From: Faunimonas pinastri
GTDB taxonomy: Bacteria > Pseudomonadota > Alphaproteobacteria > Rhizobiales > Afifellaceae
Assembly: GCF_900110915.1 (NCBI RefSeq)
Contig: NZ_FOFG01000013.1
Location: forward strand, 1 to 64,000
Reading direction: 5' to 3'
DNA: 64,000 bases
Numbering within the stretch: the stretch's first letter is position 1; every line of letters starts with the position of its first letter. Below, piece by piece: positions 1,109-2,251 of this stretch. A program made the position numbers and the translations under genes. The notes beneath the pieces are model-generated. The model searched no databases, was not told where the DNA came from, and saw only the letters and a list, made by a program, of their open reading frames with translations.

Positions 1109-1675
1109 TCAGAGCCCCCGCTGACCGCGCTTCATCGTGCGCACCAGCATGGCCGAGAGATCGGTCTGCGAGCGGCGGAAGCTGTCGGCATCCCTGGTGG
1201 TTACGTTGAAGGTGACGTTGGATCCCGTTCCCCCGCCGGCGGTGCGAACGCCGAGGCTGCCATCGGAGCCGCGCGTCAGCGGCATGATCGCTTCCGATCC
1301 CGCCTCCCCCATCAGGCCTACGCCAGATCCCATCGGAAAAACCGTGGGCGAGGACACGACGCCGCCCGAGGCGAACTTGCTGACGACACCGCCCTTCGCG
1401 AAGGCCGTCCCGGTGATGCCGCCGAGAATGCTCGTGACCGCCGTACTGATGCCGCTGGAAATTGGCTGAAGGGCGGAGGTCAATGCCTTGGAGGAAAGCC
1501 GCTCGCCGACCGACTTGACGACGTCGTCGAGCTTCTTGCCTTCGGTGACGGACTGGCTGAACGCCTTCGTCATCGACTTGCCGAACGTATCGGCGACGCC
1601 CTGCAACCCGGAAAGCGAGTCCTGCAGCGACTTGGTGTCGACATTCACGCCGACATCGACGCTGTCATCGGCCAT
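1109..1675 (-). CDS. GTA tape measure protein (g11-like)
   Basis: The protein is 188 residues, short for a tape measure but in line with GTA particles, whose tails are about 50 nm. It has an N-terminal DVGVNVDTKSLQDSL segment, a central hydrophobic Gly/Ala/Ser-rich stretch (about residues 70-110) with AKGGVV and ASGGVV repeats, the motif GEAGSEAIMPL near residue 123, and a charged C-terminus. The GGxxx-GEAGxEAxxPL arrangement is shared by the C-terminal part of many phage tape measures. Its ATG lies inside the last codons of the rcc01693-like gene (11-base overlap). Confidence 0.88.
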   Translation of the reverse strand: MADDSVDVGVNVDTKSLQDSLSGLQGVADTFGKSMTKAFSQSVTEGKKLDDVVKSVGERLSSKALTSALQPISSGISTAVTSILGGITGTAFAKGGVVSKFASGGVVSSPTVFPMGSGVGLMGEAGSEAIMPLTRGSDGSLGVRTAGGGTGSNVTFNVTTRDADSFRRSQTDLSAMLVRTMKRGQRGL

Positions 1676-1847
1676 GGTTCGTGTCCTTTCGATCAGGGAA
1701 GCGCGCGAGAAGCTGGTTCAGTCCCGCCCGTGTGAAGGAGGTGCCCGCAGCGGCCGCATAGGGCCGGACGACGGCCTCGATCTCGCGCGGGGTCATGCTC
1801 CAGAAGTCGCTCGGGGCAAGCCGCAGCACCGCGAAGCCCAGCGTCAT
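1665..1847 (-). CDS. Second GTA tail assembly chaperone, rcc01693/TAC family (possibly expressed by frameshift)
   Basis: From the ATG at 1847 the product is 60 residues with RLAPSDFWSMTPREIEAVV, the core of the rcc01693-like tail assembly chaperone family (g10.1). An SD-like AAGGAG lies only about 4 bases before this ATG. The frame stays open upstream and there encodes a PWKEL segment that, from memory, belongs to the conserved N-terminal part of these proteins, yet no ATG, GTG or TTG is available there. That open stretch is in the -1 frame of the preceding gp10 gene, so this product may be made mainly as a gp10 fusion. The annotated start is therefore a minimum estimate. Confidence 0.8.
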   Translation of the reverse strand: MTLGFAVLRLAPSDFWSMTPREIEAVVRPYAAAAGTSFTRAGLNQLLARFPDRKDTNHGR

Positions 1848-1848
1848 C

Positions 1849-1881
1849 AGCTCCTTCCAGGGAAGCAGCTGAGGGGGAGCT
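1849..1881 (-). other. Hairpin that hides the ribosome site of the second chaperone gene
   Basis: Arms AGCTCC and GGAGCT (minus strand, 1881-1876 and 1854-1849) can pair, with an additional inner TTCC/GGAA. The right arm covers the AAGGAG in front of the ATG at 1847. It lies about 26 bases after the AAACCCT heptamer, further than the 5-9 bases usual for a frameshift stimulator, so a role in blocking independent initiation is the more direct reading. This is inference from base pairing only. Confidence 0.4.
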
Positions 1882-1882
1882 T

Positions 1883-2251
1883 CTAGTATGCGGCCTGCGG
1901 CGGCTGAGGGTTTGCGCCGGCCCCGCCCGCCTCCGGGTTGCCGGGATCGGAGAACGTCACGTCGATCAGATCCGCCACGATCCGGGCAAAGCCCGCCGCA
2001 CCGCCGTCGACGCGCATCGCCGCGACCTCGTCATCGGAGACGGGCTCGCCGGCCCCGCGCAGGGCAGAGCCGATGATGCGGATCATGTCGCGCGCGGAAA
2101 GCCGGCCTTCGCCAAAGCGCTGCGCCAGGCCAACGAGGTCGCCGGCGCCGAAGCTCGCCTCCAGTTCAGCCAGCGCGCCCAAGGTCAGGCAGAGCGTACG
2201 GCGTTGACCGTCGAGGACGGCATCGATCTCACCGCGTTGCCGGTTCGCCAT
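1883..2251 (-). CDS. GTA gp10-like protein (first tail assembly chaperone)
   Basis: A 122-residue protein beginning MANRQRGEIDAVLDGQRR with the pattern LGALAELEASFGAGDLVGLAQRF, matching the GTA gp10 family (rcc01692), grouped with phage tail assembly chaperones. Its ATG overlaps the stop of the tail tube gene (TGATG). The C-terminal 20 residues are Gly/Pro/Ala-rich and contain the frameshift candidate. Position between tail tube and tape measure is the canonical position of the phage chaperone pair. Confidence 0.92.
   Translation of the reverse strand: MANRQRGEIDAVLDGQRRTLCLTLGALAELEASFGAGDLVGLAQRFGEGRLSARDMIRIIGSALRGAGEPVSDDEVAAMRVDGGAAGFARIVADLIDVTFSDPGNPEAGGAGANPQPPQAAY
1907..1913 (-). 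promoter_or_regulatory. Candidate -1 ribosomal frameshift heptamer (A AAC CCT)
   Basis: Seen directly: on the minus strand the gp10 gene reads GCA AAC CCT in its own frame, giving an X XXY YYZ heptamer seven codons before its stop. A -1 slip puts ribosomes into the frame that runs without a stop for 20 codons into the ATG of the rcc01693-like gene. Many tailed phages join their two tail chaperones in this way (G and GT of lambda). AAACCCT is not among the best-known efficient heptamers. Confidence 0.5.

Follow-up and report, generated by a model that had tools for sequence, protein, structure and literature searches.

In the 64,000-nucleotide stretch of Faunimonas pinastri DNA analyzed here (the window), the paired tail assembly chaperone genes of a gene transfer agent (GTA), a virus-like particle by which bacteria share DNA, are arranged such that a single protein, joining the gp10-like chaperone to the TAC_6 domain of the rcc01693-like chaperone, is very likely made by -1 programmed frameshifting, as judged from the sequence and its relatives. 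The gp10-like frame carries a slippery heptamer near its end, the second gene lacks a start codon at the junction, and these two features occur together across related loci.

A chaperone pair with an in-phase slippery heptamer

The pair lies on the minus strand in a head-tail cluster, only part of which is present, as the window starts inside it. By its genes, the cluster is of RcGTA type in content and order: large terminase, portal, prohead protease, capsid, connector, tail completion, tail tube, gp10-like, rcc01693-like, a 188-amino acid ORF, DUF2460 and the hub genes. The tail tube gene (PF06199) is directly upstream of the gp10-like gene. The 188-amino acid ORF (1675-1109, minus strand) has no Pfam match and is a putative tape measure gene from its position only. 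The other head-tail genes are intact, with strong Pfam matches in nine of ten proteins tested.

The gp10-like gene, encoding tail assembly chaperone 1 (1883..2251, minus strand; 122 amino acids; PF11836, E 1.3e-31), defines the 0 frame and ends at a TAG at 1883..1885. The sole in-phase XXXYYYZ of this ORF is A_AAC_CCT at 1913-1907, where AAC and CCT are gp10 codons. No stop interrupts the -1 frame between a TGA at 2033 and the end of the second chaperone gene. Within it, the transframe stretch SAAAGRILEAPPQLLPWKEL (1848..1907, minus strand) consists of 20 codons without ATG, GTG or TTG, has the conserved PW segment at its end, and leads directly into an ATG at 1845..1847. An earlier note on this DNA had pointed out both the phase of the heptamer and the open approach to this ATG, and the sequence reads as it described. 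The TAC_6 (rcc01693-family) domain and the end of the second chaperone occupy 1665..1865 of the minus strand in the -1 frame, with PF09550 model positions 1-58 at 1865-1689; the protein also matches TIGR02216, the rcc01693 family, at 60.3 bits (cut-off 56.1). No ATG, GTG or TTG of the second gene overlaps the gp10 stop. A -1 shift would produce a predicted gp10-TAC_6 fusion of 195 residues, with IVADLIDVTFSDPGNPEAGGAGANPSAAAGR as the predicted transframe peptide across A_AAC_CCT and ILEAPPQLLPWK as a predicted peptide encoded wholly upstream of ATG 1847.

An AlphaFold2 model of the gp10-like protein is ordered to residue 100. From about there on, the protein is a tail of low sequence complexity, modeled at low confidence (pLDDT 55-74 per block), and it is here that the shift signals are encoded. 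A fold search of the PDB with gp10 returned 21 matches at E <= 10, none significant (Z 2.3 at best on a second look), and a PDB sequence search gave nothing significant. Against BFVD, one of 200 structure matches had E <= 0.001, and among the 50 matches listed, eight are named tail assembly chaperone protein and five tail tube protein.

Heptamers accompany the absence of a start codon

Profile searches with PF09550 found the second chaperone in 101 of 150 genomes from the same order, in 7 of 11 from the family and in 37 of 289 from the class; a control search gave a match in one Caulobacter genome. Further loci came from searching public genomes and viral contigs for sequence patterns (two of these searches contributed 80 of 243 and 80 of 304 loci) and from two phage records. 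For the derivation set, 311 loci were read; gp10 and TAC_6 were found together in 301, the other 10 being dropped for want of gp10, and removal of 93 pairs that were at least 85% identical left 208. A held-out set of 88 further loci, for which predictions were written first, was reduced to 54 non-redundant loci by dropping 34 that were too similar to earlier loci or to each other. The combined set thus runs from 399 fetched loci through 389 gp10/TAC_6 pairs to 262 non-redundant loci. Several genomes (G142, G004 and G155:C153) have a second or further PF09550 match besides the GTA copy; the match in G155:C153 (L045) has no adjoining gp10.

The second gene is in the -1 frame relative to gp10 in 186 of the 208 derivation loci (+1 in 13, 0 in 9) and in 235 of the 262 combined loci (+1 in 17, 0 in 10). 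This relation is uninformative by itself, because ATGA overlaps give it too: loci in which the second gene has its own ATG in such an overlap share it. An ATG, GTG or TTG overlaps the gp10 stop in 98 of the 186 -1 derivation loci, and in the combined set the overlapping codon is ATG in 50, GTG in 27 and TTG in 32, all with the common frame relation. We therefore rejected the conserved -1 relation as evidence by itself. Loci were compared by the presence or absence of a start, those being called start-less with no start codon from 12 nucleotides before the gp10 stop to the domain. The start-less class comprises 116 of the 262 loci, the window locus among them.

Generic XXXYYYZ was used for the heptamer counts in all three sets, scored in the derivation set over the last 45 nucleotides of gp10. 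An in-phase heptamer is present in 90 of the 116 start-less loci (8 and 7 out of phase) and in 3 of the 50 ATG-overlap loci (1 and 1). The interpretation put forward in the earlier note, that the GTA may keep the -1 mechanism, is largely supported. The derivation set alone gave 61 in-phase heptamers in 78 start-less loci (5 and 4 in other phases) and counts of 3, 1 and 1 by phase in 46 ATG-overlap loci, an association with a Fisher p of 7e-16, computed on rows that are not independent. Within gp10 of the -1 loci, in-phase XXXYYYZ occurs at 170 of 3,055 codon positions in the last 45 nucleotides versus 28 of 21,394 in the body. The main kinds are AAACCCT/C, CCCTTTC with overlapping TTTCCCT, CCCTTTG and GGGAAAG.

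All four pre-written predictions held on the held-out loci, two of them resting on four control loci only. Heptamers were in phase in 29 of 38 start-less loci (3 and 3 out of phase) versus none of four ATG-overlap loci; mean pairing energy with the anti-Shine-Dalgarno (anti-SD) sequence was -9.3 (25 loci) versus -4.6 (the four ATG-overlap loci); and the median gp10 tail was 27 residues in start-less versus 3 in ATG-overlap loci. A similar length difference holds for the tail after the (A/V)TF motif, with a median of 22 amino acids in start-less loci with a heptamer versus 5 in ATG-overlap loci.

An in-phase XXXYYYZ is lacking in 26 of the 116 start-less loci. A post hoc search found in-phase C_CCT in 20 of these 26 (2 and 1 in the other phases), leaving six without either, versus none of the 47 ATG-overlap loci without a heptamer. 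Counted together, again post hoc, heptamer or in-phase C_CCT is present in 110 of 116 start-less and 3 of 50 ATG-overlap loci. The ATG-overlap loci supply the case that would speak against the mechanism, a clear start before the PW segment, and they make up 50 of the 262 relatives; 47 of these 50 have no heptamer. Frameshifting is thus not universal in the family. The three ATG-overlap loci that do have a heptamer count against the mechanism.

Among 61 families, as given by family code, start-less loci with a heptamer occur in 30 and without one in 13, and ATG-overlap loci without a heptamer in 14 and with one in 2. The gp10 and TAC_6 sequences are too short for a well-supported tree, and a tree-based pair test found only two supported independent pairs; for this reason the association between heptamer and start may in part reflect phylogeny. 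The best tree has 44 changes of heptamer state and 20 between ATG-overlap and start-less. These many changes and the family table argue against a single inherited coincidence, without replacing the pair test.

The 27 loci in other frames (for example L012, L014, L032, L059, L076, L080 and L082) all but one lack an in-phase heptamer, and several of those in frame +1 have an ATG 8-11 nucleotides before the gp10 stop. Three loci (L009, L050 and L065) have about 260-300 nucleotides between the gp10 stop and the TAC_6 domain; in L009 and L050 the spacer is repeat-like and open in the -1 frame, with a GTG overlapping the gp10 stop. In L022 and L161 the TAC_6 domain begins 70 nucleotides before the gp10 stop, gp10 overlapping the domain deeply in another frame. 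No in-frame natural gp10-TAC_6 fusion was found among the loci; one candidate, L126, was rejected as a long overlap in another frame.

Nucleotide signals around the shift site

Codon usage at the end of gp10 points to constraint on the nucleotides themselves. Among 28 Asn-Pro pairs in the last 60 nucleotides of gp10 in start-less loci, 22 follow an A and 20 have CCT for proline; among 22 such pairs in loci whose start is not ATG, the numbers are 21 and 22. Elsewhere, A takes 9.0% of third positions and CCT accounts for 99 of 1,326 proline codons.

For each of the three main heptamer kinds, anti-SD pairing peaks upstream of the site, and ATG-overlap loci show no such peak at matched offsets; the kinds used for this and for the downstream-structure analysis were chosen post hoc, after data inspection. 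The best pairing energy between -24 and -7 averages -8.8 kcal/mol in 82 heptamer loci, versus -5.0 in codon-shuffled tails and -2.7 in ATG-overlap loci. Compared with their own codon shuffles, 76 of the 82 pair more strongly than the mean shuffle and 47 fall in the top 10%. In the window, the Shine-Dalgarno (SD)-like stretch GGAGGCGGGCGGGG (1921..1934, minus strand) pairs at -10.1 kcal/mol, a value matched by 2% of its own codon shuffles. Its GGAGG ends 16 nucleotides before the heptamer, at the long end for such spacing, and its GGGG 7 nucleotides before. Downstream structure near the shift site is modest: mean z is -0.93 for the AAACCC type and -0.31 for the two other types, versus -0.22 and -0.08 for controls; the window itself has -0.47. 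The upstream SD-like stretch is a better candidate for a stimulator than a hairpin.

The start of the second chaperone

Apart from frameshifting, the second chaperone could start independently at ATG 1847, leaving the PW segment untranslated. This ATG is preceded by an SD-like AAGGAG (-5.5 kcal/mol), and the resulting 60-amino acid ORF still scores 60.6 bits with PF09550. Such a start is nonetheless very unlikely. It lies inside the domain, at residue 27 of the second-chaperone reading P0001 and six positions past the domain start at 1865, so that the product would cover only PF09550 positions 7-58, as compared with 1-58 when read from further upstream. It would also lose a tryptophan at domain position 3 that is kept in 73 of 78 derivation start-less loci. 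Two of the pattern searches used words containing FPW, so we recounted on loci found by profile: of 93 start-less loci found in this way, 89 have the tryptophan (the profile includes that position). The earlier note had expected homologues to keep a PW-containing segment. The NCBIfam rcc01693 model has the proline of this segment at its position 3. In an AlphaFold2 model of the second chaperone (mean pLDDT 77, pTM 0.44), helix 1 spans residues 23-33 and begins at the conserved tryptophan; initiation at the internal methionine 27 would thus be predicted to cut the helix.

Whether or not a locus has an upstream start makes little difference to the strength of the SD-like sequence at the internal methionine (-3.65 where it does, n=79; -4.00 in start-less loci, n=55), which for this reason looks coding-driven. 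The earlier note had further suggested that a hairpin over this ribosome site limits separate initiation. A hairpin is predicted there (1847..1881, minus strand; inner stem about 1872-1847, outer pairs from 1881, the outermost closing a few bases beyond this interval), and it is not unusual for its composition (z -0.47 and -0.34 versus dinucleotide shuffles), which argues little for such a role. Among relatives, 15 of 78 start-less loci reach domain position 9 with no ATG, GTG or TTG, and a heptamer lies within 60 nucleotides in 13 of them. All seven genomes of the window's family that have the gene carry AAACCCT in gp10 phase, and in three of the seven the first start codon, scanning from 60 nucleotides before the gp10 stop, comes at position 24 of the 58 in the domain. 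Afifella marina DSM 2698 (L196) has this layout, its first start codon likewise lying at position 24. An annotation that begins the second gene at the first available start codon very probably yields too short a protein. The expectation that a heptamer, the -1 relation and the protein sequence ahead of the ATG would be conserved across gp10/rcc01693 loci is borne out in start-less loci on all three counts, though the frame relation is not evidence in itself.

Alternatively, the -1 relation could be a relic of an ATGA overlap, with the second gene translationally coupled from a lost or non-canonical start such as ATA or CTG. Start codons overlapping the stop in one frame relation (the 50 ATG, 27 GTG and 32 TTG) fit this explanation, as do near-cognate codons in 26 of 78 start-less loci. 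We regard it as very unlikely: only 7 of the 78 have a near-cognate codon whose SD reaches -5 or better. The ATA and CTG codons in the window's transframe stretch have anti-SD energies of -2.0, -0.2 and -3.3 kcal/mol. The position of the SD-like sequence also speaks against it. In ATG-overlap loci without a heptamer, the best-pairing window (-4 or better, here and in the following) is at a median of 6 nucleotides before the ATG, as for initiation, but in start-less loci it is at a median of 13 nucleotides before the heptamer, and in TTG-overlap loci with a heptamer at a median of 18 before the TTG, with 0 of 17 within 3-10 nucleotides. Initiation would not work over eighteen nucleotides, and in most cases the TTG simply arises where CCT meets TGA. 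Coupling from a non-canonical start leaves the in-phase heptamers unexplained, and neither near-cognate starts nor SD strength at the internal methionine, both of which were tested, account for the pattern.

That the frames were broken by sequencing error or by decay, conceivable because the element is not self-propagating, found no support and is extremely unlikely given an AAACCCT arrangement common to all seven family genomes with the gene and strong Pfam matches in nine of the ten other head-tail proteins. Transcriptional slippage is not favored either, because the window site has no long homopolymer.

A model for expression of the pair

Under -1 frameshifting, most ribosomes would stop at the TAG at 1885-1883 and release the short, 122-amino acid chaperone, and a fraction would slip back one base on A_AAC_CCT. 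tRNA-Pro(GGG) may re-pair from CCU, which it reads by wobble, to CCC, where its pairing would be better, while tRNA-Asn(GUU) may re-pair from AAC towards AAA. Genes for both tRNAs were found in the genome (8 of 44 tRNA matches have no assigned type). The slip from A_AAC to AAA leaves a G34-A mismatch, which counts against the mechanism. The upstream GGAGG..GGGG could pair with 16S rRNA and keep the ribosome at the shift site, and slipped ribosomes would read the 20 start-less codons into the TAC_6 domain to complete the 195-residue fusion. If the analogy with lambda gpG/gpGT extends to function, the short form may act as a coat on the tape measure protein, and the rare fusion may recruit the tail tube protein.

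A broader proposal, to which we give an even chance, is that one alphaproteobacterial GTA chaperone pair has two modes of expression, a -1 fusion or an ATGA-started protein, with the relative frame unchanged. The gp10 tail would then serve solely to hold the shift signal, an SD-like stretch plus a C_CCU core; the tRNA-Pro(GGG) slip from CCU to CCC would suffice without a tandem heptamer; and the fusion would be dispensable or ratio-tuned in some lineages.

If frameshifting holds, a protein of a widespread GTA is annotated short or as a separate gene, as in two phage records, and work in which g10 and g10.1 count as independent genes deals with only half of a fusion. GTA tail assembly would have a lambda-type translational control of chaperone ratio; synonymous changes could break this control, which could therefore be tested without altering the gp10 protein. 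The family would also offer many related loci in which one mode of expression, frameshifting or separate initiation, takes the place of the other while the frame relation stays the same.

Comparison with known frameshift systems

In phage tail chaperones, -1 frameshifting is already known; its use by GTAs would be new, as a search of the open-access literature found no earlier report for GTA chaperones. The word 'frameshift' is absent from PMC11409702, PMC9765227, PMC7296036, PMC10883770, PMC6209664 and PMC6821227. For Wolbachia GTA, PMC10299305 suggests a +1 shift, which affects a hydrolase rather than the chaperones. The phage literature describes tail chaperone frameshifts as annotated by the thousands in phage collections (PMC10885494) and usual in R. 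capsulatus phages (PMC8601537), with 6-7% frameshifting measured in an HK97-like cluster (PMC3711429). The lambda gpG/gpGT shift (Levin 1993 and Xu 2004, cited in PMC5009743) is low-level, at a ratio of about 30:1, according to PMC5009743.

The window locus resembles lambda G/GT in having two chaperone ORFs after the tail tube gene, the second in the -1 frame, and an in-phase XXXYYYZ near the end of the first ORF. Some relatives of the window locus carry G_GGA_AAG, the lambda heptamer. Unlike lambda, the window pair belongs to PF11836 and PF09550, uses A_AAC_CCT with an upstream SD-like stretch and is part of a host-encoded GTA, and some of its relatives use a separate ATG.

A heptamer with an upstream SD stimulator is also the arrangement of E. 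coli dnaX (PMC5009743; PMC10885494, on PRFect). There, however, the heptamer is A_AAA_AAG, the downstream stem-loop is strong and the shift yields the shorter product, whereas in the window it would yield the longer one and the structure is modest.

RcGTA, which we compared by published descriptions, has the same two families in the same gene order. Its g10 and g10.5 are tail chaperones 1 and 2 in PMC11409702, and g10.1 (also called g10.5) is a separate short gene in PMC9765227; unlike our reading of the window, both sources treat g10 and g10.1 as separate genes.

Two phages from sewage and freshwater, MW091529 and MW462191, have a gp10/TAC_6 pair with in-phase AAACCCT directly before TGA. In both records (MW462191, L134, 2178-2740; MW091529, L135, 2124-2686) the pair contains AAACCCTTGA and the second CDS is annotated from a late start. 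Unlike the fusion proposed here, the two CDS are annotated without a join, separated by gaps of 44 and 68 nucleotides.
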